This document shows, one piece after another, positions 1 through 41,184 of a DNA stretch of 64,000 bases. The position numbers and the translations under genes were made by a program. How positions within the stretch are numbered: the first letter of the stretch is position 1; each line of letters starts with the position of its first letter. Under the pieces are notes generated by a model. That model saw only the letters and a list, made by a program, of their open reading frames with translations, was not told where the DNA came from and did no database searches. Source of the DNA: Chloranthus sessilifolius (Eukaryota; Streptophyta; Magnoliopsida; Chloranthales; Chloranthaceae); NCBI GenBank assembly GCA_021018995.1, contig CM037585.1, forward strand, positions 119,992,331 through 120,056,330, given 5' to 3'.

Positions 1-145
1 TTAATCGATTTTCAATTCGATTAATCGAAAACCAAAGTCGATTAATCGAAACCCAATTCGATTAATCGAAATCGGGATCCTCTGACTTTTCAACTTCTTG
101 GCCAATTTCGATTAATCGAAACCCAATTTCGATTAATCGAAATTG
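1..145. repeat. Palindrome array in E1 3' LTR (window edge)
   Basis: About six copies of TCGATTAATCGA or near variants are spaced about 20-21 bp apart, with one longer gap. This is the distal part of the array seen in full at 10318-10760 in the other LTR. Confidence 0.9.
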
Positions 146-1090: not shown

Positions 1091-2604
1091 CTATGACGGC
1101 GGTGGTGGAGACCGTGCTGGCTGAGTAGGCGGAGGTAGCGGCGGCTGTGGCTGGAACGTCTCTGTCGGCGGAGCGGATGTAGATGTGGAAGGAGTCGCGT
1201 CAGTAGTGGCAGTGGTGGGATGGAAAATGGGACCTCTGTGGAAGGTGGTCTGTCCCGCAGTCCACTCCTCCTGAGCGAGATAGCGGTGGTAGTCTGTCGG
1301 GTAGATGTAGCGGAGGGTGTGGAACATCAAGAAGTCCATCCTCCGGTTCATCTGCTCGTTGTTGGCCTCCATGCGACCAACACGTCGTCGATGGTAGGAC
1401 CGGATGGAGCGGCGCGTCGGCGGTATGATGAGGTGGGTGTAGCAGGCACGGAGTGAGCGGGTGGTGTCGGAGAGGCCGTAGTATGAGAGGTGGCCCTCTC
1501 CACTGAAGGCTCGGCAGGGTGTGCCCCACCCACGATTGGGTCTTGCTGTGGTGGTGGGGGTGGTGGTGGTGCTACTACTGCTGCTGCTGCTGCTGGAGCG
1601 GGACCCGGAGCCGGTAGGGTCTGCTTCAGCAGGTTGTAGCTAAGGGTCCATGAAGACTTGGAGAACGTCTTCACGCAATCTGTAGCCCTCACCTCGTGAG
1701 GTGAGATAGTGTAGGAGGGATCGTTGGAGTAGCACTCCAACATGCTCGAGATGAGGCAAGCGTAGGGCATCTTCTCCTTGGGCCGGAGGTTGCCCTTCAT
1801 CAGTTTGCCCTTAATGTACCTCATCCCCTCAAGGATGATCATGGTGGCGTCGAACCACCGACCACAGAAGGCCTCGTAGAGTGCGTGTTGCACTCGGTCC
1901 ACGCGCTCAGTATCGTGGCACATAGGGTAGAGGTTGCACTTGATCACCGAATCAAGCATCCACATATAGTGCGGAAGGTCAACCCTCTTTATGGAGGATC
2001 CCGACCCCTTTTTGTCGTTGGTCATGCGGGTCATGACCTCCTCGAATCGAGGGTCCTCCTCAAAGGGTGGGAATAGGGTGGTCTCAGGGGTAAAGTCGAG
2101 GTAGCACTCAAGCACCTCGTGGACGTGGTGACGTGTGATTGTGTAATCTCGACCCTCGATGGTGGTCTTGATCACATCGTCCGTCGGGCCGTCCACAAGC
2201 CCCTAGTAAAACAATCTCACCAATCTAGGGTAATAGGAACTCCGGATTGGTTTGAGAAGGTTGCCGAGACCGGCATTGTTAAGGTAAGTTCGAGCCCATT
2301 GGGTCTCGCCCGGCATATCGGGATTGGTGAAAAGGGTAGGGTCAATGAGGTACTCGACCTCAAAGGTCTTTGCGGCCCACCATTCATTAGGTTGCACCAC
2401 GTTAGTGGGTGGTTGGGGCATGGGGGTGAACTCACGGGAAGACTCGCGCGAAGATGCGCTCGTCGAACCGGAGGTGGTCTCCGATGCCGACGGTGATGGA
2501 GTCCTCACCGGTGATGGGGTAGGTGGTGGTGGCGCGGCGTTCTTACACCGAACCGGTAGCTTAGAGGTTGCCTTCTTCGAAGACAATCGGGTTTTGGGCG
2601 ACAT
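1091..2604 (-). pseudogene. E1 additional ORF (aORF), plant-transposon-protein-like
   Basis: This GC-rich sense reading region lies between pol and the 3' LTR. It starts MSPKTR and has a Pro/Ser-rich N-terminus, then a WWAAKTF block, YYPRLVRLFY, a central LPHYMWMLDSVIKCNLYP block, and PYACLISSMLE. A Pro-rich stretch and a short conserved tail (NEQMNRRMDF) follow. The order and spacing recall the domain annotated as putative plant transposon protein (I believe Pfam PF20167); that assignment is from memory. It is clearly homologous to the aORFs of E2 (WWASKTF, RLWMLDTYIKCALNP, PYARLITKLVE). The copy is broken, with one or two interruptions. Function is unknown. Its place between two palindrome arrays suggests a DNA-binding or regulatory role, which is inference. 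Confidence 0.75.
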
Positions 2605-2844
2605 TTTTGGTGAAATATCAAAATTTAGGGTTTCTCTAACTCAAATTGAAAGGAAAAACACAAATTTAGGGTTTACCGTGGGTTTTGGATGCGATGGCAC
2701 TTGAATCCGATCCGAAAACCAACGGAAATGCAAACCCTAGAGTGCTCGGCTGGTTGGAGAAAGAGGAGAAGAAGAAACGCGCCCAAACGAAAACTCAAAT
2801 GATTTCGAATGGGGAGTGAAATCCCTAATTTTATATATATAAGC

Positions 2845-3625
2845 CCCGACTCGATTAATCAAAATCCGAAGTCGATTAATCGAGATTCAAAACTAGGTTA
2901 AGCCGCGCAAAATCGATTAATCGATTTCCCAAATCGATCAATCGAAAGTCAAAATCGATTAATCGAAAACATTTTGATTAATCGAAATCGCATCCGTTTA
3001 AAATTTTAAGTTTTAGAGCTCACTGGCGCGAGCCAGTCGATTAATCGAAATTTCAAAATTGATTAATCGAAATTCACTTCGATTAATCGAAATCGTGCAG
3101 TCCCTTCCAAAAATTTCAGGATTCTTTAAGTTATTCGATTAGTCGAACTATGGTTCGATTAATCGAAATTTCAAATCGATTAATCGAATCCTACTTCGAT
3201 TAATCGAAATCGTTTCTCTGACTTAGAATTTTCATAGTTCCTTTAAGTCATTCGATTAATCGAATTTCCAATTCGATTAATCGAAATTACAAATCGAGTA
3301 ATCAAAATCTGCTCGATTAATCAAAAATTTCAGTAATTTCCTCTAAATTCTTCTAACATTCCCAGTTTGTTCGATTAATCGAACATGTAGTTCGATTAAT
3401 CGAATTCCCAATTCGATTAATCGAATTTCCAAAATACATTAATCGATCCCAAATCAATTAATCGAAATTATAAATCGATCAATCGAAATTGCATCCTATG
3501 TCTGTCCTAACTTTTATCCAAATTTCCAGTCACCGGCACATGCCAGTCGACTAATCGAACAAAATCGATTAATCGAAATTCCAAATCGATTAATCGATTT
3601 GAAATTCGATTAATCGATTTTGCCT
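2845..3625. repeat. Palindrome array in E1 pol-aORF spacer
   Basis: About 27 copies, including one-base variants, of the self-complementary 12-mer TCGATTAATCGA occur here. Neighbouring copies are usually 20-21 bp apart, and longer gaps are often near multiples of that. Some clusters begin after a short inverted motif such as ACTGGC-gcga-GCCAGT (about 3020-3036). Similar leaders lie near 3530, 10310 and 10595. There is no coding potential. Confidence 0.93.
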
Positions 3626-3829
3626 AATTTCTGCAGATTTTCAATTTCTTTGGTTCTTTGATTACTTTTGGTAGTTTTGACATCAAGTGGCTCTTAGTTC
3701 CATAAAAACACATACACTTGGTCATGTGCATACAAAATCTGTTCGTTAAATCATACTTTGATCAAGACTTCCATTGATTTACAAGTGTTGTGAAAATCCA
3801 CGAACATGCTTGTGGTTTACATTGGATTC

Positions 3830-9380: not shown

Positions 9381-10317
9381 GAACAAAACACAGTTGAACA
9401 TATAAATTATTACTCACATATATTCCATGATATGCCATGCATGATGTGTCTATGCAGTTACTGATGAAAACAGTTAAAAAGCATCACATTTTACTGGTAG
9501 TTTACTCATGTCTTTTATTTGTTCATGAATGATGCTGAAAAGGCCTAAAGCAAAACTTAAACTTTCAACTTAAGTAATCCCCGAGCAATATAGCATCGAG
9601 CCCCGATGAGATACCCATCGTCGTCATCTATATAGACACTTTTAACGTATTCTCTGGGAATACAAATAGTACCCAAGCCCCTTTCCCCTGGGGTATGCTT
9701 ACTGTGTACGGATAAGCCTCCGCACTGGCCTACAGTTTCGCCACCGTAACGGTCACGGATATCCTGCCGTGTCAGTCGTGGATATCCCGCCACGTCGGTG
9801 GGGTACCCTATCAAACCTCAAATAACAAAAGTATCAGATGCTTTACATATAGTTATTCACCGTGTAAATGTGCTATCTTATATCAGTTAAGCCCTATCAA
9901 ATATGATTCAATCGTGGATGCATCCCTGGGATGTATCCATTCACTTGTATCACACCTGATGCTCTTATCTCTTTACTTCTTCATCCCCTGAGGATGGCTC
10001 ATTGTGATTACTTTTATTAATGTCACACACACACACTTTTCCCAACTCTTTAAGCAATAAAACATTTTGAATTTCAAATCCATATCACTACATACATACT
10101 CTTGTAAAATAAGGTACATGTTCAAGGAGTTCCCTACCTCAAGTCTTCGTTTGATCAATGCATCAAGGTCCCACGTGGCTCCTTGTGCACTTGCTCACAC
10201 GTACCACCTATGGTACCACATAACATGTGAAACACATCACTAAGGATGCAATAAAGGAGGTCCAAGACCCCCCAAGAATCTCAAAGTCAAACTCAGAAGT
10301 CAACATAAACTGGCCCA

Positions 10318-10760
10318 GTCGATTAATTGATTTCCAAAATCGATTAATCGAAAGTCAATATCGATTAATCGATTCTCAAATCGATTAATTGAGATTCCCA
10401 TTCGATTAATCGAAACCCAATTCGATTAATCGACATTCTCTGCTCTATTAAGTCGATTCTCAATTCGAGTAATCGAGTTTCTAAAATCGATTAATCAATC
10501 CCAAATCGATTAATCAAAATTACAAATCGATTAATCGAATTTTCATTTCTATTAGTCGATTTCATCAATCCCATTTCTCTTCTTCACTGGAGTCCACTGT
10601 AGGCTCCCAGTCGATTAATCGATTTTCAATTCGATTAATCGAAAACCAAAGTCGATTAATCGAAATCGGGGTCCTCTGACTTTTCAACTTCTTGGCCAAT
10701 TTCGATTAATCGAAACCCAATTTTGATTAATCGAAACCCAATTTCGATTAATCGAAATTG
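10318..10760. repeat. Palindrome array in E1 5' LTR
   Basis: About 17 copies of TCGATTAATCGA or close variants occur, mostly 20-21 bp apart, in clusters that follow short CAGTC leaders. This array is equivalent to the one at the window start. Confidence 0.92.
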
Positions 10761-11342
10761 CCAGATTTTGCCCCCTTCAGGCTGTTCTTCCAATTCTTTC
10801 TCCATTTATTTTCTTTCTTTTTCTAAGCCTTTTTACCCTACATTTTACAACATTCTAACTACAATTAACCTCCCACATCTTATGCATTTAATTCACAAGA
10901 AATTTACCTCAATCAAATCTCAATTTGATTAGATCTAGTGGTTGGAAGGGCTAGGGTTCCAGCTTTGGCTCTAACGGATCCAAACCGTGTCGAATCCGGC
11001 TTTTATCGCTTGAATCCGCCTTCTAATCAGTTGCAATAACTCCTCTCATTACTTTTCTCTCTCTCTCTCTCTTCTTTACTCTCCTTCAACAACCAAGATA
11101 CAGATTTTAGGGTTATTAAACCTTTTTTATCTATCCCCTTCCTTGTGTGTTGAGCACATACACCGCTGTAGGTGTATGCGACCTCACATTCACATCACAC
11201 ACCACACAATCTCTCAGGCCATCACATCTCATCCGTTCATCACAATCTATGTCAACCATTGAACTCCCAATTGGTCAAACCTGCGACCAATCGGGCACGG
11301 ATCCCGAGGTCACTGTTTAACGTGATTTTTCGGGATATTACA

Positions 11343-11565
11343 ATTTATATCATAGCTTCATAAATAATTTACCTAGTGAGCTTTTGGAACATATCATTTC
11401 TTTGAGAGAGACTGCTTTGTCTATAAATTCAAATTTTCCTTAACTTCTAAACTATTTTAATAGAAATCTCATTGCTGCAATTTGAATCCAATTCTTCGAT
11501 TGTGTTATGTGTCTTTCTTGAACCGTTTATTATAAGCATTAACACAATATAACATCACTACTAGT
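11343..11565. other. Unassigned sequence between E1 and the 694-bp array
   Basis: AT-rich sequence with no recognised gene or terminal repeat. It is the immediate right flank of E1 and should hold one copy of E1's target duplication, starting ATTTA. Confidence 0.5.
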
Positions 11566-14130: not shown

Positions 14131-14674
14131 TGTAGATGACCGGATTTCTGCACCCAAAAATCCGTGCCATCAGGATCATACTCTGGATGATCCCCGGGAC
14201 AAATCATATGTGCCTGCTTGTAAAGCGGAAGCCAAGCAGACACCACCCAGCAGTAGTAGATCGAGCCAGTCACTTATCAACGCATTTAATAATAAAGAAC
14301 AACAATATTAAGACAATTAATTCTATATTAAACAACGAAAATGCATTCTCCAAAAAGGAACCAAGAAGAACCATTGGTGATGGACATCCATCACCCAAAC
14401 AATGGTTCCCAATAGTGGTTCCGAATAGAATGCGTAACTATACAATAAGTAATCCTAATGAAATGTACACAAAAGTGGCCACCGGGCACACCATAATCCA
14501 AAAGAACCAAAATACAGTATAACAGACACTAGTACCCAGGCTACGGATAGAACTCGTCCGCCTGAACGTCGGTCTCCTCGTCTTCGGCCTCAGCCTCTGG
14601 ATCAGGCTGGTAGTCTGGATCACTCTCAGTACCCGGAACTACGGCCTCAGAACCTAAATTTAATTTAGAACACA

Positions 14675-14701
14675 GGGTGAGCTACATCCTAGCTCAATAG
14701 G
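14675..14701 (-). promoter_or_regulatory. Conserved LTR stem-loop in E2 LTR1
   Basis: This is the same GAGCTA-ggatg-TAGCTC hairpin as in the E1 LTR. Further copies lie at 24636-24662 (LTR2) and 34496-34522 (LTR3). Confidence 0.55.
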
Positions 14702-15423
14702 AGAATTTCCAACAAAACGAATTGAATATGCAGATCATGCTATCTCATAACAAAAATCAAATCAGAAATGTACAATCGTGATAATCAAATCAAATCGATC
14801 TTTTAGACAAGAAATCGATGTCATGCAAGTATATTATCGGAGAGCTTAAATTGTGTATATTTAACTTAAGAAACTCCCTGACTATATAGCAGATGTGCAG
14901 GAATGTCCGATAGGAAACCCCAACCAATCGTCGTTCACATGAACAATTGTGAAAGTGCAACAATGCCTCATCTATGGAGTGCAATTGTGCAGGATTACAA
15001 GCGGTGCACAAGTGTGCGGGCATCGGATATCACCGGTCGGTGGGGATCATCTGGTTTAAATCATCAAATCACATACGTATACACCTCATAGATCGGATAA
15101 TGTAATCGAAGCAAGTTTTCGAATGCGAATCGAAGCAATCAAAATAGCGAGGAATCAAGATATGCATACATGTTTGGTAAAAGGTAAATCGGGGCATAGA
15201 TATAAGATAAACATGGAATCATACTCAAAAAGCAGTTTAGGTTGGTTTTCCCTACCTCGGGTCAATCTATCTTCTAAGCAAATCCAAAGCCTTTTCACGG
15301 TGTCAGGGTTTGATTCCTAGACCATAAACATAGTACTTTAAATGTTAGGGTGTCAGTAAGCTAACCGGCACAATGTCCGATGGTGTTTAATCCACAAAAC
15401 CAAAACAGAACCAAAACAGGGTT

Positions 15424-16060
15424 ATTGATCGATCACTACTCACGTTGATCGGTCAATGCTCCTTGTTGATCGATCAATACCTCTCATTGATCGATCACCA
15501 CTCTTTTAGTCTCCACTCTACAACAACCCAATTGATCGATCAATACACCTTATTGATCGATCACCTATCATCATTGATCGATCAATACACTCATTGATCG
15601 ATCAATAACCTGTCATCTACTCATTTTTTAACATATCTTAAATTGATCGATCACCACTTGGGTTGATCGATCAATGCCTCTGATGATCGATCAATACCTC
15701 TCATTGATCGATCACCAACCCTTTTCAAAATTCACCTTTCTGTTCACATTCTCTTTTTATACAGATTGATCGATCACTGACCTCATTGATCGATCAACAC
15801 CCTACAGTGATCGATCAATACTTCTGTTGATCGATCACCAACTGTCATTGATCGATCACTCTCCTGTTGATCGATCAATGCCCTCATTGATCGATCAATG
15901 CCTAAATTGATCGATCAATGCCCTTCGGGCATTGAACTTCTAACATTTTGGGTCTCTGTTCCCCTATTCTGTCCTATATAGATTGATCGATCAACAGGCT
16001 TCATTGATCGATCACCACTGCTATTGATCGATCACCACTTGTGTTGATCAATCAATAATG
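15424..16060. repeat. Palindrome array in E2 LTR1
   Basis: About two dozen copies of TTGATCGATCAA or TTGATCGATCAC occur in runs with 19-22 bp spacing. The 10-bp linkers fall into two recurring types, after AAT(A/G)CC or after CACC/CACT. The run ends near 15915 with a perfect 8-bp hairpin, CAATGCCC-ttc-GGGCATTG. Confidence 0.94.
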
Positions 16061-16793
16061 ACAGAAACTCTGTCATTAATGGAGTTCATCTCCAACCCTA
16101 TTTTTCATTAATGGTTCTCAACTACCATTATCATGACATCAATGCCCACACCTGGGCATCTCATTTGCCCCTATTAAAACACATAATCTTACCTTTGTTA
16201 GGGCCCTCACGGGGTTTCGGCAAATCGATTCGAATGAGGGCTTCGGATCTAGTTTCCGGAGTTTGTCGTCGCTACGGCTTGGATAAGTCGATGCCCAGTT
16301 TCCTTTCAACCCTCTAGACCATACACACTCTTAAGCTAGTGTGGAGTGTCCTAGCTCATCTCTCAATCCTCTATCTCGGATAATGTGGGATCCCCGGGTA
16401 CCGCTAACTCCGTTTCTCAAGGAACACCCTCACAGACCAACCTAGATACAGACTTCTCAGCTTCTAAAGCAAGGGAAAGAGGGAGAAGAAGAAGAAGAAC
16501 TCCCTCTAGGTCTCCCTTCCTTCTCTTATAAGCTAAGAAAACAGATATTTCTGTTTTCCCCTTATTTTTGTTCCGGTGTGGAGCACTAACACGGTCGCTA
16601 CGACGCGAAGTGCTACGCTAACCCTTTACCCAACTCAGACTTAAACAAAAATTCAAATGTGAACTAATCTAACCGTGGTATAACCTTATCTCAACTAATA
16701 TTACTTCTTAATTTTTAAATCGGTCTCAATTTCCGTGCCGGGCACGTAGATCGAAACAGTTAGTTTCATGTTCTAGATTTTAGGGTTGTTACA

Positions 16794-16930: not shown

Positions 16931-18487
16931 CTAAACAGAATATATATAATGTGTAGAGTAATGTAAGTGCGGATATATACGTATTATAAAGTAGTATAGA
17001 TATACCTGTAGGAGCGTCGGATGGACCGGCCTCGTCAGGTGTAGGTATGCAGAGCGGTGGTGGTGGAGCCGTGGTCGCGGGTCCACCACGCGTCTTGTGG
17101 CGTGGGCGATCATCGGTGTGGACGTAGTGGCATATAGGTGCTGCATGACGAGCTCATGCATCCCCTCGTGGTAATCCAGACGACGATGCATCTGTCGCTG
17201 GAATGCCTCCATGCCATCCAGCCTCTCGTGTATACGGCGGTTGCCCTCCACCAGCTCCCGAAGCATCGCGGCAACGTCGTCTGAGGAAGATGGTGGGGGA
17301 TGGGCCGTGGGCTGACGAATCGGTCGATGGGGTGTAGTGGGGGCCGGTCGGGTAGACACCTCAGATGGAGGTGGTAGATCACGTGGGGCCTCCCCCTCTC
17401 CTGATGCAGGGTCGGCAGGAACCGAACCCTCAACGACGGTAGGTGGAACGGGCTCGACTGCGCCCTCATCCTCCTCTGGAAGCCGTCTCACAAGTAGGTT
17501 GTAGCTCTTGGTCCAGTCTTTCAATTGAAAGACCTTGGTGTTGTCAACCAAGCGTGGCTCGTGGGGAGCCAAAGTGTAGGCTTCTCGTAGAGCGGCATAC
17601 TGCTCTACGAGTTTGGTGATAAGGCGGGCATAGGGGATCTGTTTCTTAACCCCGGATTTGACCTTCTCAGACATGAGGTCATTGGCGTTGATGATGCCCT
17701 CAATGACCAAATCTGCCATAGAGAACCAACGGTTCTCATAGGCCGAGAATAGTGCTTGTTGCACTACTCCAGTCTGCGAGGACTTGTGCAGAAAGGGGTT
17801 TAGTGCACACTTGATATACGTATCAAGCATCCACAGTCGGTCGGGTAGTTGGGCCCTGGATATGGATTGGCCCCTCCCGTGTTGGCCTTGGGTCATCTTA
17901 GTGACCACATCGGCGTAAGAGACCTCCTTGATGTACGGGACATCAAGGCCACAGGTCTCGATATAGGCGGACGGGCATTGAAGTGCCGCCGCGACATGGA
18001 AATGGTTGAATTTGTACTCAAAACCATCGATGGTCGTGACAAGTCGATGGCGACTATCACCCCATCGTAGGTTTTGGAAGAAAAGCCTCACGATGCGTGG
18101 GCAATAATGGTCGTGGAAGGGTTCGAGCAAGGGTTTTAACCCGAGCTTTTGGATGTAACCCTTGGCCCAAGCCATTTCGGGTCGGTCCTCGTAGAGCGAG
18201 GAAGCAAAGACGTATTCGGGTAGGAAGGTTTTTGAAGCCCACCACGGTTTGGGAACTTCACGCTCAATGGGGAGCGGGCAGCGCGAATCGGGACGATGGT
18301 GGAAACCGGTGCCATGGGTGCTTGCAGTCGGCAAGGGGCGGAAGCGGTGGGCGATGCAGTGCGAGCCGGGCGTGGGTACCTTCTGTGGCGTTCTTCGTGC
18401 GAGGTCCCATGATCTAATCTCGGCTAAAAATTTGAAAAGAGAGATCAAAATTAATGAAACGAGAGATTTACCGAATGAATGGAGCAA
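16931..18487 (-). CDS. E2a additional ORF (aORF), plant-transposon-protein-like
   Basis: A long sense frame between pol and LTR1, far more GC-rich than its surroundings. Key blocks are PKPWWASKTFLPEYVF, HYCPRIVRLFFQNL, FEYKFNHFHVAAALQCP, LPDRLWMLDTYIKCALNP, ENRWFSMADLVIEGI and IPYARLITKLVEQY. A Pro/Ser-rich hinge follows, then a short heptad-like tail (RIHERLDGMEAFQRQMHRRL) that could be a coiled coil. It is homologous to the E1 aORF and nearly identical to that of E2b. The domain resembles the putative plant transposon protein family. A start near 18411, MGPRT, resembles MSPKT of E1 and may be the natural one; the frame as listed begins further upstream. No catalytic motif is recognised. Function is unknown. 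Confidence 0.7.
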   Translation of the reverse strand: MLHSFGKSLVSLILISLFKFLAEIRSWDLARRTPQKVPTPGSHCIAHRFRPLPTASTHGTGFHHRPDSRCPLPIEREVPKPWWASKTFLPEYVFASSLYEDRPEMAWAKGYIQKLGLKPLLEPFHDHYCPRIVRLFFQNLRWGDSRHRLVTTIDGFEYKFNHFHVAAALQCPSAYIETCGLDVPYIKEVSYADVVTKMTQGQHGRGQSISRAQLPDRLWMLDTYIKCALNPFLHKSSQTGVVQQALFSAYENRWFSMADLVIEGIINANDLMSEKVKSGVKKQIPYARLITKLVEQYAALREAYTLAPHEPRLVDNTKVFQLKDWTKSYNLLVRRLPEEDEGAVEPVPPTVVEGSVPADPASGEGEAPRDLPPPSEVSTRPAPTTPHRPIRQPTAHPPPSSSDDVAAMLRELVEGNRRIHERLDGMEAFQRQMHRRLDYHEGMHELVMQHLYATTSTPMIAHATRRVVDPRPRLHHHRSAYLHLTRPVHPTLLQVYLYYFIIRIYPHLHYSTHYIYSV

Positions 18488-18570
18488 GGTCCACTCGAAT
18501 CAAGCCGGAGAACGAACGGAAATGGCCGGAGAAGAGTTGGGGAGGAGATTGGACGGTCGGAGTGCAAGCC

Positions 18571-18988
18571 TTTGATCGATCACAGTGAACGCTTCGTGCA
18601 AATGACCGTTCGACATCCCCTATTTTTAACTTAAACCCCAGCATTGATCGATCACGGATTTTGTTGATCGATCAATGAAGCATCTTTAAGCCCTAAATCG
18701 ATGCATTGATCGATCACCAACCTCTGTTGATCGATCACTGATGCCCTTATTGATCGATCACTACTAATGTTGATCGATCACTACTTTCCTTCCAATGCAA
18801 AATTGATCGATCACTGACCTATGTTGATCGATCACTTGAAGCTCTATTGATCGATCAATACTGCTATTGATCGATCACCTACCTTACTTCTGGGTAAAAT
18901 CCTTCACTATCATTGATCGATCACCTCCTTCTGTTGATCGATCACTCATGAGATTGATCGATCACTAACCTCTATTGATCGATCAATG
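18571..18988. repeat. Palindrome array in E2a pol-aORF spacer
   Basis: About 15 copies of the TTGATCGATCA(A/C) palindrome lie between the aORF and the integrase end, again mostly about 20-22 bp apart or at larger intervals. This is the counterpart of 2845-3625 in E1. Confidence 0.93.
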
Positions 18989-19182: not shown

Positions 19183-19593
19183 TCAATGGGTAAACAAATG
19201 TGGGTACTGTTCGCGGATTTCGGTTGCGCGTTCCCAAGTAGCTTCAGTGTCCGAATGATTTCTCCACTTGACTAGTACCAGTGGAATTAACTTAGTCCGC
19301 AGAACTTGATCACGACGATCTAAAATCGCAATTGGTTCTTCTATCACCGTCATATCCTTCAGAAGTTCTATTGGTTGGTAATCCAAGACGTGAGTCGGAT
19401 CGTGTACGTAACGGCGTAGCATGGACACGTGAAAGACGTTGTGCATGCTTGCCAACTGTGGTGGCAAGGCAATCCGATAAGCGACTTCTCCAACCCTTCC
19501 GAGTACTTCAAATGGTCCGATGTATCGAGGACTCAACATTCCGCGTTTTCCAAAGCGCATGACGCCCTTGGTTGGCGAAATCTTCACAAACAC
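19183..19593 (-). pseudogene. E2a integrase C-terminal part with chromodomain-like tail
   Basis: MRFGKRGMLSPRYIGPFEVL, MLRRYVHDPTHVLDYQP and the chromodomain-like end PLVLVKWRNHSDTEATWE. It is equivalent to 3830-4282 in E1 and typical of Tekay/Del. It is part of a broken pol. Confidence 0.88.
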
Positions 19594-19676
19594 CTTGTCT
19601 CCAACCTGAAAACCAGTGTTAACTCTCTATTGATTTAATTTTAACCATGGGCATACGTATCGTCTGACGTATTTGG
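19594..19676 (-). other. Intron-like spacer in distal integrase of E2a
   Basis: This short AT-rich stretch has GT- and AG-type borders in element sense. It is present in both E2a and E2b and absent from E1 at the corresponding place. Confidence 0.4.
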
Positions 19677-20830
19677 TTATACCTGAAACTCCACTTGCGT
19701 CCGATGAAGATCCGCATAGCTCTTTTGACGGCTTTGGGCCATCCTCAATCTTTCGCGAATCACTCTAACCGTCTCAGTAGTATTGTCCACGATCGCTGGT
19801 CCTAAGACGAGCTTTTCGCCGACTTCTTCCCAATTCAGTGGAGATCTGCATCGACGTCCATATAACGCTTCATAAGGCGCCATCCCAATACTTGACTGAT
19901 AACTGTTATTGTAAGCGAATTCGATCAGAGGTAAGTGTTGATCCCATAAACCATGAAAGTCCAACATACACGCACGCAACATATCCTCTATAATCTGGTT
20001 CACTCTCTCGGTTTGCCCATCTGTCTGAGGATGAAATGCTGAGCTGAATTCCAATTTAGTGCCCATGCCTTCCTGGAATCGTCGCCAAAACTGTGATGTA
20101 TATAGCGGATCTCTATCACACACGATGCTGACCGGTATGCCATGTAGTCGAACTATTTCCTTCATGTATAGCTCGGCTAGTTTATTTGCTGTAAATGTAG
20201 TCCGATACGGTAGAAAATGTGCTGATTTCGTCAGTCTGTCTACAATAACCCAAATGGCATTATTCTTTCTCAATGTGCTCGGCAATCCTAGTATAAAGTC
20301 TATAGAAATGGCCTCCCATTTCCACTCTGGCACTGGTAATGGTTGTAACAAACCCGCTGGATTTCGATGATCTACTTTCACTTGCTGGCAGACCAAACAC
20401 CTAGAAATGAAATCTGCCACATCCTTCTTTAATCCTCTCCACCAAAAACTTCTCTTGAGATCTTGGTACATCTTGGTACTCCCAGGATGTATAGCATATG
20501 TAGACTTATGCGCTTCCTCCAAAATTGTGTCTTTTAGGTCCTTTGTATCCGGTATGCATACCCGATCTCGAAATAGCAATGTGCCATCATCCTTGATGGT
20601 AAAATCAGGTCTGATCCCGTTGATCACATCTCTTCTAATTGCCATAAGCTCATTGTCAATCATCTGGAGCTTATGTACATTGTCAAACAATGTAGGGCGT
20701 ATCACGATGGTAGCCATTAGTGTCCCTGAACCTCTAACATCAATCAGCGTATCACATAAGGCCAGGTCCTCAAGTAGGTGCCACCTTTGTACTCGGGTGA
20801 TAAGATGTGCCAACTGGCTGACGACTTTCT
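19677..20830 (-). pseudogene. E2a integrase
   Basis: The zinc-binding region is [17 protein letters not shown] with CLVCQQVK. The catalytic core contains [36 protein letters not shown] and [19 protein letters not shown], then YNNSYQSSIGMAPYEALYGR. The D,D-35-E layout of retroviral-type integrases is visible. Broken copy. Confidence 0.9.
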
Positions 20831-22640
20831 GCTCAAAGCATCTGCCACAACATTGGCCTTCCCAGGGTGATACTGGATGGAACAATCGTAGTCTTTCAAG
20901 AACTCCATCCATCTGCGTTGTCTCATATTCAAATCCTTTTGAGTAAACAAATATTTAAGGCTTTTGTGGTCGGTAAAGATATCAAACGTCTCACCGTACA
21001 AGTAGTGCCTCCAAATCTTCAAGGCAAAGATTACCGCAGCCAACTCTAAGTCATGAGTCGGATAATTCTTTTCATGCTCCTTCAGCTGTCTAGAGCCATA
21101 AGCGTTAACCATCTTGTGCTGGTTGAGGACACATCCCAAACCACCATATGATGTGTCATCAGAGATAGCAAAACCTCCTCCGCAAGGTATTGCCAACATC
21201 AGTCAGAGTCGAGCGTCTTCAATTCACAGCTCTTCTCACACCGGTCCAATCAAATCTAGCATTCTTCTTAGTGTGAGTGAGTGGACCGGATAGTTTAGAG
21301 AACCCCTCCACGAACCGTCTAGTATCCGCCAAACCAAGAAAACTACGGACCTCTATCGTCCTCGGTCCCACGATTCTACGGCTTCAATCTTAGCCGGATC
21401 CTGTAATACCCTTTGCGAGACGATATGACCCAAGAAACTAACTTGGTCAAGCGGAACTCACACTTCTTGAGCTTGCGATAAAGTTTGTGATCTCGAGGTC
21501 GCAAAGTAACACGTAGATGCCCTTCATGTTCCTCCCTTGTCTTGGAATAGACAAGGATGTCATCTACAAATACCACCACTGATGTGTCCAAGTGTGGTTT
21601 AAACACTCGGTTCATCAAGTCCATGAAAGACGCAGGTGCGTTCGTCAATCCAAATGGCATAACAAGGAATTCATAGTGCCCATATCTGGTTACGAGCGTC
21701 TTCTCAATGTCTTCAGCTCTGACTCGTAGTTGATGATAACCCGACCGCAAGTCGATCTTCGTAAAGAACCTCGCTCCTTGCAATTGATCAAACAGATCAT
21801 CGATTCTAGGAAGCGGGTAACGATTCTTAATCGTCAACTTGTTTAACTGTCGATAGTCGATGCACAAGCGCATTGAACCATCCTTCTTTCTGACAAACAA
21901 TACTGGTGCTCCCCAAGGAGACACACTAGGTCGCACAAAACCCTTGTCAAGTAGTTCTTGCAATTGCTCCTTTAGCTCTTGTAATTCTGCTGGAGCCATC
22001 CGATAGGGAGCCTTTGATACTGGCTCAGTGCCTGGGATTAGATTGATTACAAACTCCACCTCCCGATCTGGTGGTAGTCCCGGTAAATCCTCAGGAAATA
22101 CATCGGAATACTCGCATGCAATGGGAATATCGGATATCACATTTGTCTTCTCCCGTTGCTCTTGTAGGAAGGCTATATATCCACTGCATCCACTCTCCAT
22201 CATCCTCTCTGCCCGAATAGCGGATATCAAAGGAGCTACCTTAGACTTCACTCCGAAGAATCTAAAGGATCGCTCCTTTGGAGGGCGGAAAACTACCATC
22301 TTCCGAAGACAATCCACACTTGCGTGGTAAGCAGATAGCCAGTCCATTCCCAAGATGATGTCAAAACCTTTCATATCTAACAGAATCAAATCTGCCCGCG
22401 TCTCATGATCATCTACTGCCACTATCACTGATTTACACACGGTGAGTGCATTCCTTTGCACTACACAGGGGATTGACCTTGTCGAGGATAAAATCTAGTT
22501 GTTGCAGGTGGCACTCAATCTCTTTGTAAATTGAGGCCGTACGAAAGAATGTGTAGAGCCTGGGTCTATCAGGGCTCGTGCTCTATGGAAGCAAATATCG
22601 CAACTCCTATACAGTTTCAGCTCACCTACATACCAATATC
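20830..22640 (-). pseudogene. E2a protease, reverse transcriptase and RNase H
   Basis: The order is the protease end ([20 protein letters not shown]), RT ([48 protein letters not shown]) and RNase H ([43 protein letters not shown], ending DALSRKSS). E2b has the same block. Broken, with several interruptions. Confidence 0.9.
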
Positions 22641-22785
22641 AACATTACTGTAACGTTCTAGATGTGTAGGTTTATGCGTGCTATTATAATCAAAATAAAT
22701 AAATTAATTTATATATTTCTAATTTTCCAGTTTATTATATCAAACAACACCATATCTCTTGAATTCTAATCATACCTTGAATGAC
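22641..22785 (-). other. Intron-like spacer at the E2a gag-protease junction
   Basis: AT-rich, at the same position as 7283-7390 in E1, with GT-type and AG-type borders in element sense. Sequence is unlike that of E1 although position is shared. Confidence 0.45.
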
Positions 22786-22789
22786 GTCA

Positions 22790-24041
22790 TTTGATGTCAG
22801 AGCATCGGTGGCGGTGACGGCATAAGCTCGACCGTGAACCACTGGTCGGGCTGATCTTTGTGTAGATACCGATCCCACCGCTCTTTGCTCTCCTCGTGGC
22901 AATTCCTAACCAAGTGACCCATCTTGCCACACTCAAGCATGCCCTGTCTCTCTCCTCAGCCTCCTGTCTTGTGTGGTTTCACACTTTGCACATATCGCCG
23001 GAGTGAAGGACTCAGACTCTTGAAGGTCCCCTGAGTCCGAGGCCCCACTACCAAAAGATCCAAATTGGTCGAAATGATCTCGAAGATGTAGGCGCTTCTC
23101 TAATATGAACTCGGTCCTGAAGAAATCGCCGGTCGAGAGTGCGTAGGGTATCTCGGAGGTCTGGAAAATCTAGCCCTCTTGTTTTGCTCTGTATCCTGAG
23201 ATTGCCCTTGGAAAGGTCTCTCTCTCGCCAGCTTATCCCTCCAAGAGAATTGTTTCTGGTTCTCTTCCTCGGCTATGAGAGCCTTGGCCATGACTCCCTC
23301 ATAAGTCTCCATTTCCCACATGGCGACGTCTTTCTGTAAATTTTGCCTCAGGCCGAGTTGGAATTTCCTTGCTCTCATCAACTCCGTGGCTACATGTTGA
23401 GGTGCAAACCTAGCCAACCTATCAAACTCTGCTCCATAATCTCTCACTGACATGGCGCCTTGCCTCAACTCTATGAATTTCACCTCCCATTGATGCCTCA
23501 CAATTTTCGGGAAGTATTTGTGATAAAACACCTCCGTAAACTCCTCCCATGTCCAAGGAGTGTGAGGAAACTCTCTCTGCCTATTTTGTGACACCGACTT
23601 CCACCAAGGTCCGGCGTCACCATCCAATTTGAAAGTGGCCCAACGCACTTTCTCTACGTCACTGCATTGCAATACTTCAAAGAGCTTTTCCATCTCTTCT
23701 ATCCACCCTTCTGCCTCAATGGGATCCGTTTGACCTGAGAAGTTAGGAGGTCTCATTCTCCTAAACTCTGCAAATCCACCAGGCTGATGGGGTGGTCTAG
23801 CTGCCTGTTGAGCTAAAGCAGCTGTCTGCTGAGCGACGTTGGTAGCTAATGCTTCCAACACCTGCTCCATCCTCTCTTCGTTTCTCCTTCTACCTCCTCT
23901 GGGTCCCAATGGAACCGCATTTGCTTGTGATAGGAACTCCAAGCCCCTCGACGAGCCTATAACTTCGGGCACATCCCTCAGAGGAATCTCTCTCTGACCT
24001 GTTCTACCTCTGTCGTGCCCTCCTCTGAACTTAGGGCCCAT
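22790..24041 (-). pseudogene. E2a gag
   Basis: Starts MGPKFRGGHDRGRTG. The Gag core has RRMRPPNFSGQTDPIEAEGW, KLDGDAGPWWKSVSQN, PWTWEEFTEVFYHKYF and ELRQGAMSVRDYGAEFDRLA, followed by a basic linker and a degenerate zinc-knuckle region. Nearly identical to E2b gag. Broken. Confidence 0.9.
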
Positions 24042-24149
24042 ACTGGTCTGTCATTGTGAAAACAACAACATCGATCAGTACCTAGATTGTGAAAACAATC
24101 CAACCTGAACCCGTAGTTCAACCTAACGTCTAGGCTCGACATTACCATC

Positions 24150-26738
24150 AGGCCGATTTCGCACCAATCCGTGCCATCGAGATCATACTACTGGATGATC
24201 CCCGGGACAATCATATAATATGCGCTTGTAAGCAAGCGACACCAGATAGTAGATCGAGCCAGTCACTTATCAACGCATTTAATAATAAAGAACAACAATA
24301 TTAAGACAATTAATTCTATATTAAACAACGAAAATGCATTCTCCAAAAAGGAACCAAGAAGAACCATTGGTGATGGACATCCATCACCCAAACAATGGTT
24401 CCCAATAGTGGTTCCGAATAGAATGCGTAACTATACAATAAGTAATCCTAATGAAATGTACACAAAAGTGGCCACCGGGCACACCATAATCCAAAAGAAC
24501 CAAAATACAGTATAACAGACACTAGTACCCAGGCTACGGATAGAACTCGTCCGCCTGAACGTCGGTCTCCTCGTCTTGACCTCGGCCTGCAGATCAGGTG
24601 GTAGTCCGGATCACTCGATGTTAATTTAGAACACAGGGTGAGCTACATCCTAGCTCAATAGGAGAATTTCCAACAAAACGAATTGAATATGCAGATCATG
24701 CTATCTCATAACAAAAATCAAATCAGAAATGTACAATCGTGACGAATCAAATCAAATACTGATCTTTTAGACAAGAAATCAGATGTCATGCAAGTATATT
24801 ATCAGAGAGCTTAAATTGTGTATATTTAACTTAAGAAACTCCCGTGACTATATAGCACGGAGTAAACAGGAATGTCCGATAGGAAACCCCAACCAATCGT
24901 CGTTCACATGAACAATTGTGAAAGTGCAACAATGCCTCATCTATGGAGTGCAATTGTGCCGAGGATTACAAGCAGGTGCACAAGTGTGCCAGGCATCGGA
25001 TATACCGCCGGGTCGGTGGGGATCATCTGGTTTAAATCATCAAATCACATACGTATACACCTCATAGATCAGATAACAGAATCAGAAGCAAGTTTTCAGA
25101 ATGCGAATCAGGAAACAGAAATCAAAATAGCAGGAATCAAGATATGCATACATGTTTGGTAAAAGCAGAAATCAGGGCATAGATATAAGATAAACATGGA
25201 ATCATACTCAAAAACAGTTTAGGTTGGTTTTCCCCTACCTCAGGTCAATCTATCTTCTAAGCAAATCCAAAGCCTTTTCACGGTGTCAGGGTTTGATTCC
25301 TAGACCATAAACATAGTACTTTAAATGTTAGGGGTGTCAGCAAGCTAACCGGCACAATGTCCGATGGTGTTTAATCCACAAAACCAAAATAGAACCAAAA
25401 CAGGGGTTATTGATCGATCACTACTCCTGTTGATCGGTCAATGCTCCTTGTTGATCGATCAATACCTCTCATTGATCGATCACCACTCTTTTAGTCTCCA
25501 CTCTACAACAACCCAATTGATCGATCAATACACCTTATTGATCGATCACCTACCATCATTGATCGATCAATACACTCATTGATCGATCAACCTCTCTCTT
25601 CTCATTTTTAACATAGTTAAATTGATCGATCACCACTTGGGTTGATCGATCAATGCCTCTGATCGATCAATACCTCTCATTGATCGATCACCAACCCTTT
25701 TTCAAAAATTCACCTTTCTGTTCACATTCTCTTTTTATACAGATTGATCGATCACTGACCTCATTGATCGATCAACACCCTACAGTGATCGATCAATACT
25801 TCTGTTGATCGATCACCAACTGTCATTGATCGATCACTCTCCTGTTGATCGATCAATGCCCTCATTGATCGATCAATGCCTAAATTGATCGATCAATGCC
25901 CTTCGGGCATTGAACTTCTAACATTTTGGGTCTCTGTTCCCCTATTCTGTCCTATATAGATTGATCGATCAACGGGCTTCATTGATCGATCACCACTGCT
26001 ATTGATCGATCACCACTTGTGTTGATCGATCAATAATGACAGAAACTCTGTCATTAATGGAGTTCATCTCCAACCCTATTTTTCATTAATGGTTCTCAAC
26101 TACCATTATCATGAAATCAATGCCCACACCTGGGCATCTCATTTGCCCCTATTAAAACACATAATCTTACCTTTGTTAGGGCCCTCACGGGGTTTCGGCA
26201 AATCGATTCGAATGAGGGCTTCGGATCTAGTTTCCGGAGTTTGTCGTCGCTTCTGGCTTGGATAAGTCGATGCTTCCTTTCAACCCTCTAGACCATACAC
26301 ACTCTTAAGCTAGTGTGGAGTGTCCTAGCTCATCTCTCAATCCTCTATCTCGGATAATGTGGGATCCCCGGGTACCGCTAACTCCGTTTCTCAAGGAACA
26401 CCCTCACAGACCAACCTAGATACAGACTTCTCTCGCAAGGAAAGAGGAGAAGAAGAAGAACTCCCTCTAGGTCTCCCTTCCTTCTCTTATAAGCTAAGAA
26501 AACAGATATTTCTGTTTTTCCCTTATTTTTGTTCCGGTGTGGAGCACTAACACGATCGCTACGACGCGAAGTGCTACGCTAACCCTTTACCCAACTCAGA
26601 CTTAAACAAAAATTCAAATGTGAACTAATCTAACCGTGGTATAACCTTATCTCAACTAATATCACTTCTTAATTTTTTAAATGGGTCTCAATTTCTCGAG
26701 ACACGTAGTTTCATGTTCTAGATTTTAGGGTTGTTACA
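24150..26738 (-). repeat. E2 LTR2 (shared middle LTR)
   Basis: About 2.59 kb. It starts (element sense) TGTAACAACC at 26738 next to the E2b polypurine tract. Its left border near 24150 is approximate, because the LTR end and adjoining primer-site region have diverged from LTR3. No target duplication flanks it. Contains a stem-loop at 24636-24662 and an array at 25408-26035. Confidence 0.88.
25408..26035. repeat. Palindrome array in E2 LTR2
   Basis: About two dozen TTGATCGATCA(A/C) units with the same order and linkers as in LTR1 and LTR3. Confidence 0.93.
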
Positions 26739-26924: not shown

Positions 26925-28265
26925 TTATAAAGTAGTATAGATATACCTGTAGGAGCGTCGGATGGACCGGCCTCGTGTAGGTGTGGGGACTGTGGGGCAG
27001 GCGGTGGTGAGCGGGTCCACCACCCGCGTCTTGGCGTGGCGATCGCGGTGTGGGCGAGTGGCATATAGGTGCTGCATGACGAGCTCATGCATCCCCTCGT
27101 GGTAATCCAGACGACGATGCATCTGTCGCTGGAATGCCTCCATGCCATCCAGCCTCTCGTGTATACGGCGGTTGCCCTCCACCAGCTCCCGAAGCATCGC
27201 GGCAACGTCGTCTGAGGAAGATGGTGGGGGATGGGCCGTGGGCTGACGAATCGGTCGATGGGGTGTAGTGGGGGCCGGTCGGGTAGACACCTCAGATGGA
27301 GGTGGTAGATCACGTGGGGCCTCCCCCTCTCCTGATGCAGGGTCGGCAGGAACCGAACCCTCAACGACGGTAGGTGGAACGGGCTCGGCTGCGCCCTCAT
27401 CCTCCTCTGGAAGCCGTCTCACAAGTAGGTTGTAGCTCTTGGTCCAGTCTTTCAATTGAAAGACCTTGGTGTTGTCAACCAAGCGTGGCTCGTGGGGAGC
27501 CAAAGTGTAGGCTTCTCGTAGAGCGGCATACTGCTCTACGAGTTTGGTGATAAGGCGGGCATAGGGGATCTGTTTCTTAACCCCGGATTTGACCTTCTCA
27601 GACATGAGGTCATTGGCGTTGATGATGCCCTCAATGACCAAATCTGCCATAGAGAACCAACGGTTCTCATAGGCCGAGAATAGTGCTTGTTGCACTACTC
27701 CGGTCGAGGACTTGTGCGAAGGGTTTAGTGCACACTTGATATACGTATCAAGCATCCACAGTCGGTCGGGTAGTTGGGCCCTGGATATGGATTGGCCCCT
27801 CCCGTGTTGGCCTTGGGTCATCTTAGTGACCACATCGGCGTAAGAGACCTCCTTGATGTACGGGACATCAAGGCCACAGGTCTCGATATAGGCGGACGGG
27901 CATTGAAGTGCCGCCGCGACATGGAAATGGTTGAATTTGTACTCAAAACCATCGATGGTCGTGACAAGTCGATGGCGACTATCACCCCATCGTAGGTTTT
28001 GGAAGAAAAGCCTCACGATGCGTGGGCAATAATGGTCGTGGAAGGGTTCGAGCAAGGGTTTTAACCCGAGCTTTTGGATGTAACCCTTGGCCCAAGCCAT
28101 TTCGGGTCGGTCCTCGTAGAGCGAGGAAGCAAAGACGTATTCGGGTAGGAAGGTTTTTGAAGCCCACCACGGTTTGGGAACTTCACGCTCAATGGGGAGC
28201 GGAACGGGCGCGGGTACGGTCGGGACAGTGGTCGAAACCGGTGCCATGGGTGGCACGGTTGGCAA
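26925..28265 (-). CDS. E2b additional ORF (aORF)
   Basis: Same protein as the E2a aORF over the conserved domain (PKPWWASKTFLPEYVF through IPYARLITKLVEQY and the RIHERLDGMEAFQRQM tail). It differs mainly at the N-terminus and at the extreme C-terminus. The frame is open over the whole domain. The surrounding gag-pol is broken, so an open aORF may simply reflect young age. Confidence 0.7.
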   Translation of the reverse strand: MPTVPPMAPVSTTVPTVPAPVPLPIEREVPKPWWASKTFLPEYVFASSLYEDRPEMAWAKGYIQKLGLKPLLEPFHDHYCPRIVRLFFQNLRWGDSRHRLVTTIDGFEYKFNHFHVAAALQCPSAYIETCGLDVPYIKEVSYADVVTKMTQGQHGRGQSISRAQLPDRLWMLDTYIKCALNPSHKSSTGVVQQALFSAYENRWFSMADLVIEGIINANDLMSEKVKSGVKKQIPYARLITKLVEQYAALREAYTLAPHEPRLVDNTKVFQLKDWTKSYNLLVRRLPEEDEGAAEPVPPTVVEGSVPADPASGEGEAPRDLPPPSEVSTRPAPTTPHRPIRQPTAHPPPSSSDDVAAMLRELVEGNRRIHERLDGMEAFQRQMHRRLDYHEGMHELVMQHLYATRPHRDRHAKTRVVDPLTTACPTVPTPTRGRSIRRSYRYIYTTL

Positions 28266-28494: not shown

Positions 28495-28900
28495 TTTGAT
28501 CGATCACAGTGAACGCTTCGTGCAAATGACCGTTCGACATCCCCTATTTTTAACTTAAACCCGGCATTGATCGATCACGGATTTTGTTGATCGATCAATG
28601 AAGCATCTTTAAGCCCTAAATCGATGCATTGATCGATCACCAACCTCTCATTGATCGATCATCGATGCCTTATTGATCGATCACTACTAATGTTGATCGA
28701 TCACTACTTTCCTTCCAATGCAAAATTGATCGATCACTGACCTATGTTGATCGATCACTTGAAGCTCTATTGATCGATCAATACTGCTATTGATCGATCA
28801 CCTACCTTACTTCGGTTCACTATCATTGATCGATCACCCCCTTCTGTTGATCCATCACTCACGAGATTGATCGATCACTAACCTCTATTGATCGATCAAT
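28495..28900. repeat. Palindrome array in E2b pol-aORF spacer
   Basis: About 15 TTGATCGATCA(A/C) units, collinear with 18571-18988. Confidence 0.92.
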
Positions 28901-34010: not shown

Positions 34011-36602
34011 TGTGGGACCCGGTTACGCGCAATCCGTGCCATCAGGATCATACTCTGGATGATCCCCGGGACAAATCATATGTGCCTGCTTGTAAAGCGG
34101 AAATAGCGAGACCACCACGCATTTAATAATAAAGAACAACAATATTAAGACAATTAATTCTATATTAAACAACGAATATGCATTCTCCAAAAAGAAACCA
34201 AGAAGAACCATTGGTGATGGGCATCCATCACCCAAACAATGGTTCCCAATAGAGGTTCCAATAGAATGCGAATATACAATAAGTAATCCTAATGAAATGT
34301 ACACAAAAGTGGCCACCGGGCACACCATAATCAAAAGAACCAAAATACGATTATAACATGTAGTACCCGAATCTGGATAGAACTCGTCAGCACGTCGGTC
34401 TCCTCGTCTTGACCTCGGCCTCTGGATCGGTGGTAGTCCGGATCACTCTCGATTCCGGAACTACTACTCGGAACCTAAATTTAATTTAGAACACAGGGTG
34501 AGCTACATCCTAGCTCAATAGGAGAATTTCCAACAAAACGAATTGAATATGCAGATCATGCTATCTCATAACAAAAATCAAATCAGAAATGTACAATCGT
34601 GATTTAATCAAATCAAATCTCGATCTTTAGACAAGAAATCGATGTCATGCAAGTATATTATCGAGAGCTTAAATTGTGTATATTTAACTTAAGAAACTCC
34701 GTGACTATATAGCAGAGTAAGCGAGGAATGTCCGATAGGAAACCCCAACCAATCGTCGTTCACATGAACAATTGTGAAAGTGCAACAATGCCTCATCTAT
34801 GGAGTGCAATTGTGCCGAGGATTACAAGGCGGTGCACAAGTGTGGCGATATCTGGATCTGGTTTAAATCATCAAATCACATACGTATACACCTCATAGAT
34901 CGATAATGTAATCAAGCAAGTTTTCAGAATGCGAATCAGGAAACAGAAATCAAAATAGCAGGAATCAAGATATGCATACATGTTTGGTAAAAGCAGAAAT
35001 CAGGGCATAGATATAAGATAAACATGGAATCATACTCAAAAACAGTTTAGGTTGGTTTTCCCCTACCTCAGGTCAATCTATCTTCTAAGCAAATCCAAAG
35101 CCTTTTCACGGTGTCAGGGTTTGATTCCTAGACCATAAACATAGTACTTTAAATGTTAAGGGTGTCGAAGCTAGCAAGCACAATGTCCGATGGTGTTTAA
35201 TCCACAAAACCAAAGCAGAACCAAAGCAGGGTTATTGATCGATCACTACTCCTGTTGATCGATCAATGCTCCTTGTTGATCGATCAATACCTCTCATTGA
35301 TCGATCACCACTCTTTTAGTCTCCACTCTACAACAACCCAATTGATCGATCAATACACCTTATTGATCGATCACCTACCATCATTGATCGATCAATACAC
35401 TCATTGATCGATCAATAACCTCTCTTCTACTCATTTTTAACATAGCTTAAATTGATCGATCACCACTTGGGTTGATCGATCAATGCCTCCTGTTGATCGA
35501 TCAATACCTCTCATTGATCGATCACCAACCCTTTTTCAAAAATTCACCTTTCTGTTCACATTCTCTTTTTATACAGATTGATCGATCACTGACCTCATTG
35601 ATCGATCAACACCCTACAGTGATCGATCAATACTTCTGTTGATCGATCACCAACTGTCATTGATCGATCACTCTCCTGTTGATCGATCAATGCCCTCATT
35701 GATCGATCAATGCCTAAATTGATCGATCAATGCCCTTCGGGCATTGAACTTCTAACATTTTGGGTCTCTGTTCCCCTATTCTGTCCTATATAGATTGATC
35801 GATCAATGGGCTTCATTGATCGATCACCACTGCTATTGATCGATCACCACTTGTGTTGATCGATCAATAATGACAGAAACTCTGTCATTAATGGAGTTCA
35901 TCTCCAACCCTATTTTTCATTAATGGTTCTCAACTACCATTATCATGACATCAATGCCCACACCTGGGCATCTCATTTGCCCCTATTAAAACACATAATC
36001 TTACCTTTGTTAGGGCCCTCACGGGGTTTCGGCAAATCGATTCGAATGAGGGCTTCGGATCTAGTTTCCGGAGTTTGTCGTCACTACGGCTTGGATAAGT
36101 CGATGCCCAGTTTCCTTTCAACCCTCTAGACCATACACACTCTTAAGCTAGTGTGGAGTGTCCTAGCTCATCTCTCAATCCTCTATCTCGGATAATGTGG
36201 GATCCCTGCACGCTAACTCCGTTTCTCAAGGAACACCCTCACAGACCAACCTAGATACAGACTTCTCAGCTTCTAAAGCTAGGAAAAGAGGGAGAAGAAG
36301 AAGAAGAACTCCCTCTAGGTCTCCCTTCCTTCTCTTATAAGCTAAGAAAACAGATATTTCTGTTTTCCCCTTATTTTTGTTCCGGTGTGGAGCACTAACA
36401 CGGTCGCTACGACGCGAAGTGCTACGCTAACCCTTTACCCAACTCAGACTTAAACAAAAATTCAAATGTGAACTAATCTAACCGTGGTATAACCTTATCT
36501 CAACTAATATTACTTCTTAATTTTTAAATCGGTCTCGATTTCCGTGCCGGGCACGTAGATCGAAATAGTTAGTTTCATGTTCTAGATTTTAGGGTTGCTA
36601 CA
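34011..36602 (-). repeat. E2 LTR3 (outer 5' LTR)
   Basis: About 2.59 kb. In element sense it runs from TGTAGCAACC at 36602 to GGTCCCACA at 34011. It is followed outside by GAATT (36603-36607). It carries the stem-loop at 34496-34522 and an array at 35233-35868. Confidence 0.92.
35233..35868. repeat. Palindrome array in E2 LTR3
   Basis: About two dozen TTGATCGATCA(A/C) units, collinear with those of LTR1 and LTR2. Several units that are imperfect in LTR1 are perfect here. Confidence 0.93.
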
Positions 36603-36607
36603 GAATT
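36603..36607. repeat. E2 target site duplication, right copy
   Basis: GAATT directly after the LTR3 terminus CTACA and before TGTCAGAAC of the interrupted 694-bp unit. Confidence 0.9.
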
Positions 36608-39337: not shown

Positions 39338-39522
39338 ATAGGTTAAGACAAGGATTAGTTATAGAGCTACCAGTATCGCCCGATACCTCTATTTATTTTT
39401 ATTTATTTATTTATTTTTAAATAGACCGATACGTATTGGCCAATTCGTATCGGTCCTCCATGGACCAATACCCGATATTAAAACCGAGTTTGACACCTTG
39501 CTTTCAATGGTGTACAAGCCTC

Positions 39523-39595
<73 letters not shown>

Positions 39596-40288: not shown

Positions 40289-40312
40289 ATTTATAATTTT
40301 CTTATTTTGATA

Positions 40313-40402: not shown

Positions 40403-40438
40403 TTTTTCTCTCTAATAAAATTAACATTTTATTTCTAA

Positions 40439-41096: not shown

Positions 41097-41184
<88 letters not shown>

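Follow-up and report, generated by a model that had tools for sequence, protein, structure and literature searches.

Organization of the window

The window analyzed here is the whole stretch of 64,000 nucleotides at C2:119992331-120056330 of the 2.17-Gb genome of Chloranthus sessilifolius. On the minus strand, three LTRs of a retrotransposon family termed B flank two internal regions (E1 and E2). An element of a further family, A, is located at the left end of the window. The features are listed below in window positions.

18..139, no strand: array of the family A 3' LTR, 5 sites; the LTR is cut by the window start
1348..2604, minus strand: family A aORF, with an in-frame stop near 2207; ORF piece 1348-2196
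2830..2842, minus strand: TATA box between the family A spacer array and the family A aORF, read from the sequence
2873..3616, no strand: family A spacer array, 16 exact CGATTAATCG
10341..10754, no strand: array of the family A 5' LTR, 10 exact sites
14140..16793, minus strand: LTR1, the 3' LTR of E1 (family B), left end approximate
15426..16034, no strand: palindrome array of LTR1, 22 TGATCGATCA
16931..18487, minus strand: aORF of E1 (family B), from the ORF listing; conserved domain 17462-18274; PF20167 at E=0.005, under the cut-off
18573..18985, no strand: E1 spacer palindrome array, upstream of the E1 aORF, 15 TGATCGATCA
19400..24041, minus strand: broken gag-pol of E1, left end approximate; gag piece assigned by Pfam, pol pieces by inspection
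19677-20912, 20744-21199, 21376-22461 and 23100-24041, minus strand: ORF pieces of the E1 gag-pol, from the ORF listing
24145..26738, minus strand: LTR2, common to E1 and E2, with an array at 25411-26032 (23 sites); left end approximate
26925..28265, minus strand: aORF of E2, 446 aa open; PF20167 at E=0.00077, under the cut-off
28497..28898, no strand: E2 spacer palindrome array, 14 TGATCGATCA
34035..36600, minus strand: LTR3, the 5' LTR of E2, with an array at 35236-35866 (24 sites); both ends approximate

Positions 14140-36600 form a tandem of three LTRs and two internal regions, as unequal LTR recombination would leave. The aligned pieces of the family B LTRs in the window differ by about 5-7%.

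The palindrome TGATCGATCA has 98 copies in the window, compared with a Markov-1 expectation of 0.07. All of them lie inside the two family B elements in five clusters, three in LTRs (22, 23 and 24 copies) and two in spacers (15 and 14). The family A element contains 31 copies of CGATTAATCG (5 and 10 in the LTRs, 16 in the spacer; expectation 0.011). When one mismatch is allowed, the wider stretch of the family A spacer (2801-3700) contains 25 TCGATTAATCGA, and that of the 5' LTR (10251-10850) contains 16 sites. An earlier note on this DNA had described an aORF flanked by a spacer array and an LTR array in both families, and this arrangement is seen in A and in B. The note had also described the aORFs as homologous yet diverged and the palindromes as different; the proteins are 36-37% identical (33% over 403 columns by hhalign), and the palindromes are CGATTAATCG in A and TGATCGATCA in B.

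Recurrence in other families of the genome

The genome was searched with PF20167 and without use of the palindromes; 150 of 13855 candidates were scored and the best 30 retrieved. CGGACGTCCG was present in 29 of these best 30 loci, with at least 3 copies in 28 of the 29. The 30 loci count as a single independent case because all are copies of one family, C. The locus lacking CGGACGTCCG, L039, was left out of the family C counts: here the aORF lies directly next to the copia RT of family C itself, so that the array-bearing stretch is missing. Eight more PF20167 loci were picked for differing profile bounds. L072 and L076 are C-like, L069 and L071 carry CTCGCGAG (family D), L070 is a decayed relative, L075 carries GTCGATnnATCGAC (family E), L073 has an array with 22-bp spacing, and L074 is a nested insertion. 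The apparent combination of a C aORF with a B palindrome in L074 was rejected, as a B LTR is inserted within the C aORF.

Ty1/copia integrase and RT frames lie upstream of the family C aORF (L077, one copy, by inspection), and 2-3 AGGGGGAG tracts follow the aORF and precede the 3' LTR in all six loci examined (of 31). These two features identify family C as a Sirevirus. The family D aORF is preceded by Athila-like pol (one copy, by inspection). Near-matches to the D palindrome number 5-8 in 6 of 7 loci and 2 in L070 (shuffle means 0.08-0.26), and just one of six D loci contains at least 3 exact 10-mers. L070 and L087 are old D copies whose CTCGCGAG sites, by inspection, seem altered at CpGs, as methylated sites decay. 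The family E palindrome was found in all four retrieved copies, one of which (L080) is the same locus as L075, with 13-20 sites at up to 2 mismatches (shuffle maximum 4). A gag-like CCHC frame lies upstream of the E aORF, with no pol between them in the stretches read by inspection. Family E (L080-L083, L079) looks abundant, and its aORF is kept though pol is absent from the stretches read. Family A has a chromodomain (PF00385) at 26.2 bits, with the cut-off at 25.1; the name 'Tekay' for A and B is the label of the earlier note.

The single locus L073 is the weakest case of the pairing. Its five (G/A)TGGTTRACCAC sites at 22-bp steps were spotted by eye and then scored (shuffle maximum 1), and an exhaustive word search of the same stretch failed to single them out, the best word having 9 sites at a shuffle maximum of 9. 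The array of the L073 locus (locus at C2:145362100-145364300) lies within what looks like an LTR, and the PF20167 frame of L073 is possibly a 5'-end aORF. This frame soon follows TGGTATCAGAGC, which we take to be primer-site-like sequence. The aORF-palindrome pairing proposed for A and B was thus found more broadly than proposed, in five families and one single locus, and in both LTR superfamilies.

Exclusivity was scored as at least 3 exact 10-mers per locus; L001, L004 and L009 are the window copies, L039, L073 and L074 stand outside the groups, and the controls were the pol stretches L077-L079 together with the remainder of the window. The A motif was present in 30/30 A loci and also in 4/4 E loci, and in none of B, C or D. 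The B motif was present in 8/8 B loci and none of A, C, D or E; the C motif was present in 29/31 C loci and in no other family. The control L079 has four family E palindrome sites, probably in its LTR. The palindromes are family-exclusive, save for a core common to A and E. The proposal that protein and motif vary together agrees with the exclusivity of the palindromes but less well with family E, where the palindrome resembles that of A and the protein is closest to that of D (hhalign).

Features of the aORF proteins

The proteins of C, D and E score 65.9, 53.3 and 52.9 bits against PF20167, above the curated cut-off of 45 bits; those of A (17.9) and B (17.2 and 19.8) score below it. By hhalign, the aORFs of A, B, D and E are joined to one another at 97.5-100% (A/B to D/E at 97.5-99.2%). 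The family C aORF reaches just 0.8-22% with A, B, D and E, and its membership comes via PF20167. This was the sole relevant family in a Pfam scan of the A-E aORFs to E=10, in which DUF1985 and DUF287 had no match. The E2 aORF had no match to E=10 by sequence against the PDB, and its patterns had none against viral contigs.

The earlier note had stated that the aORF stays open in E2 while gag-pol is broken. Over the domain and toward the C-terminus (446 aa) this is correct; it does not hold for the N-terminus, where about 25 residues in E2, and about 50 in E1, are off-frame relative to the copies L002 and L005. The E2 aORF is not special, because that of E1 is likewise open over the domain; the pol genes of both E1 and E2 are split into several frames. 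Among the best-scoring family A copies, 105 of 138 show no stop (counted by eye) in the matched 282-aa piece, which begins after the stop of the window copy. The median dN/dS of the aORF is 0.24 in family A (26 sequences, 325 pairs), 0.21 in family C (23 sequences, 245 pairs at dS > 0.02) and, for family E, 0.62 (4 sequences including frame-shifted tails, 6 pairs). The aORFs of A and C evolve under purifying selection.

By hydropathy, the proteins of A-D do not have the transmembrane segment of an envelope-like protein: no strong membrane segment was found (best 19-residue value 0.95-1.23, one or two copies per family). The best value in family E is 1.72, a borderline membrane segment. A basic stretch is located close to the N-terminus of the A, B, C and D proteins (by inspection). 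Only family C shows significant coiled-coil periodicity close to the C-terminus; the values for A, B and E are 0.26, 0.08 and 0.21. Two AlphaFold2 models covering three window proteins were unusable, with pLDDT of 36 and 35.

Promoters, spacing and conservation of the arrays

In 27 of the 29 array-bearing loci of family A, the last pre-aORF site is followed by a TATA box at a distance of 9 bp, and in 29/29 the box comes within 30 bp (shuffles 0.11). It lies at 9-11 bp in 11/31 loci of C (shuffles 0.10), at 13-35 bp in 3/5 of D (shuffles 0.01) and at 22-41 bp in 4/4 of E (shuffles 0.01). None was found within 200 bp after the last site in 8/8 loci of B and 20/31 of C. By this TATA pattern, a link to a promoter stands out in A and E and is modest in C, and B does not show one.

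Across families A, B, C and E, 76 out of 109 spacings between consecutive sites, counted up to 110 bp, fall at 18-23 bp. Among the genome-wide pairs listed, which are the first places on contig C1 rather than a random sample and include many copies of one another, 62/67 in A (with E), 48/50 in B and 38/50 in C are 19-23 bp apart; 8-11 would be expected if distances were uniform between 10 and 40 bp. Of the 12 remaining pairs listed for C, 11 are 40 bp apart. In E, steps of 20-23 bp occur among longer ones, and in L073 the step is 22 bp. Family D is spaced differently, with 4/50 listed pairs at 19-23 bp and 40/50 at 27-38 bp, in a search that extended to 38 bp. Past the first step no helical phasing is seen, as the 33 longer spacings do not follow a period of 10.5 bp (p ~0.11). 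Genome-wide, 121886 pairs were counted for A (including E), 57496 for B and 2378 for C, compared with 0, 1 and 0 for reversed control palindromes; D has 1302 pairs versus 3 for its controls. First-look aORF candidates number 44664 in A and 32655 in E, as loose counts that may mix families. In B, 57496 pairs over 1617 such candidates work out at about 36 per candidate, close to the 43 counted for a complete element, and therefore most B arrays seem, as a rough estimate, to reside in aORF-bearing elements.

Spacers inside arrays are more alike than shuffled ones in A, B and E, though not in C; growth of the arrays by duplication of units of about 21 bp is therefore possible in these three families. 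Divergence was counted where the reference copy carries the majority base, with motif-adjacent stretches left out. The motif diverges less than the spacer in B (0.3% versus 2.5%), in C (5.2% versus 19.7%) and, outside CpG, in A (2.8% versus 6.4%; 5.5% versus 6.4% at all positions). At CpG positions of family A the motif diverges by 9.5% and the spacer by 7.8%. Selection also acts to keep the motif in A, B and C.

Relation to known systems

The aORF-palindrome pairing is real and recurrent, and it is partly known, because family C is a Sirevirus and, for Sireviruses, palindromes located within the LTR and ahead of ENV, termed the repeated motif (RM), were published by Bousios et al. in 2010 (PMC2829016). 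According to the available text of that report, the RM is specific to Sireviruses and, one element excepted, has a CGG-CCG core, and all nine ENV-bearing RM Sireviruses have pre-ENV copies. The coupling is not strict, because four of the 13 palindrome-bearing Sireviruses (OPIE-2, PREM-2, Osr8 and Tnd-1) are without ENV, and six ENV-containing ones are without RM boxes. No element protein is named as RM binder in that text. The families described here share with the RM/ENV Sireviruses the placement of palindromes, both within the LTR and ahead of a sense aORF. They differ in that the pairing also occurs, with other palindromes, in chromodomain gypsy, Athila-like and gag-only families, and the spacing of about 21 bp and the protein homology are added to the RM report (PMC2829016). 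In the open-licence literature searched, we found no report that ties such aORFs to palindromes outside Sireviruses, of the pairing in gypsy families or of the common protein family. The novelty proposed in the earlier note is qualified by the Sirevirus part, in print since 2010.

VANC proteins of VANDAL transposons resemble the present case in that an element-encoded protein is accompanied by a short motif that forms clusters in noncoding DNA of the same family, and in that protein and motif differ between families, here apart from the core common to A and E; for VANC, binding and methylation loss were demonstrated (PMC5735166, PMC10398659). These accounts also mark the differences. VANDALs are DNA transposons and the families here are LTR retrotransposons. 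VANDAL motifs are non-palindromic, in a single orientation and spread by tandem repeats, whereas the motifs here are palindromes and so without orientation. VANC proteins carry DUF1985 and DUF287, neither of which was detected in the A-E aORFs to E=10, and the description of the system as a counterpart of VANC stays conjectural. VANC-DNA structures are mentioned as unpublished in a 2026 meeting report (PMC12859917), and the possibility that LTR elements encode methylation-shaping factors was raised in PMC12844716.

With the aORFs of PF20167 (Transposase_32, Athila ORF-1; PMC11728184, PMC6317226) the likeness is one of sequence, as C, D and E match the profile and the aORFs of A and B have homologs in D and E. 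The stem 'palindrom' does not occur in the available text of the aORF paper PMC11728184. Retand with TRP28 likewise has an aORF predicted to bind DNA, and tandem repeats between pol and the 3' LTR (PMC11963269); its aORF is antisense with a different domain, whereas those here are sense. The function of plant retrotransposon aORFs or 'env' genes was called unknown, controversial or open to question (PMC7264820, PMC11728184, PMC6317226), and whether such ORFs have any function was asked in PMC6317226.

Interpretation

The explanation that we favor, and that we hold on balance to be just on the probable side, is that the aORF protein recognizes the palindrome of its own family and keeps or makes the promoters of the element active. 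The aORF would encode a nuclear, probably dimeric, sequence-specific DNA-binding protein, specific to its family's palindrome, with binding sites arrayed both within the LTR and ahead of the internal promoter of the aORF itself. A spacing of roughly two helical turns in A, B, C and E would place neighboring dimers on one face of the DNA. The bound protein would keep or make both promoters active, either through activating them directly or through removal of silencing in the manner of VANC, and each family would switch on its own copies only. We infer DNA binding, dimerization, nuclear location and activation or anti-silencing alike. Binding of the cognate palindrome, taken by itself, is considered reasonably probable; anti-silencing specifically of the VANC type is rather doubtful. 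Counted in favor of the explanation are the palindrome-blind recovery of family C, the exclusivity of the palindromes, the spacing in A, B and C, the TATA positions, the lower divergence of the motifs, the dN/dS of A and C, the basic N-termini and lack of a strong membrane segment in A-D, and the presence of aORF and palindrome in family E with no pol seen. Counted against it are the limitation of significant coiled-coil periodicity to C, the spacing in D, the missing TATA boxes in B and most of C, the CpG divergence in A, the core common to A and E, the dN/dS of E and the Sireviruses that have either palindromes or ENV alone. It is proposed, tentatively and at somewhat less than an even chance, that the aORFs of the PF20167 superfamily in plants, both 'envelope-like' ones and their relatives, form a family of self-recognizing DNA-binding proteins encoded by retrotransposons.

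The arrays might instead be enhancers for host transcription factors, different in each family, with an aORF protein that has another role and adjoins the array as it needs its own promoter. Such enhancers would suit the abutment of arrays on TATA boxes in A and in some of the C, D and E loci, and the available text on Sireviruses, where the palindromes matched mainly stress-factor sites and no single common binding factor was identified (PMC2829016), as well as the elements cited above that have either palindromes or ENV alone. The same spacing rule, however, applies in four families with different palindromes and related aORFs (by hhalign in A, B and E, by PF20167 in C), for which one protein family is the simpler account, and the gag-only family E retains aORF and array with no pol in the stretch read. 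We regard host-factor enhancers as unlikely.

Somewhat less likely still is a protein that binds the palindromes for negative autoregulation, or for guiding integration or localization, rather than for activation or desilencing. Sites beside the aORF promoter and in the LTR suit repression as well as activation, but the families look abundant by loose counts, which a repressor would not obviously favor; this is an impression rather than a test. Palindromes acting as nucleic-acid structures or small-RNA targets, alongside an envelope-like, movement or RNA-silencing protein, are judged quite improbable. The LTR palindromes of maize Sireviruses are described as small-RNA mapping hotspots (PMC5311732), the text available compares non-canonical Tekay proteins from maize and sorghum with a dsRNA-binding protein (PMC11728184), and family E has its borderline membrane segment. 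Structure alone, on the other hand, does not need a single motif at 19-23 bp, conserved above its spacers, and the hydropathy of A-D argues against an envelope.

If recognition of its own palindrome by the aORF protein is true, sequence-specific anti-silencing or self-activation would extend to abundant plant retrotransposons, a natural series of related proteins with differing DNA specificities would be available, and the long-open question of plant retrotransposon aORF or 'env' function would be answered by palindrome binding.

Other features of the window

A 694-bp tandem repeat flanks the family B complex on both sides (11565-13945 and 36600-37593), with copies 78-100% alike, as if one repeat array had received the B elements. 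Repetitive stretches at 39467-44045 read as mutual inverted arms, and palindromic words of the TATATATA type are frequent in the window. Frames at 48634-50232 resemble, by inspection, the end of a LINE reverse transcriptase and RNase H.
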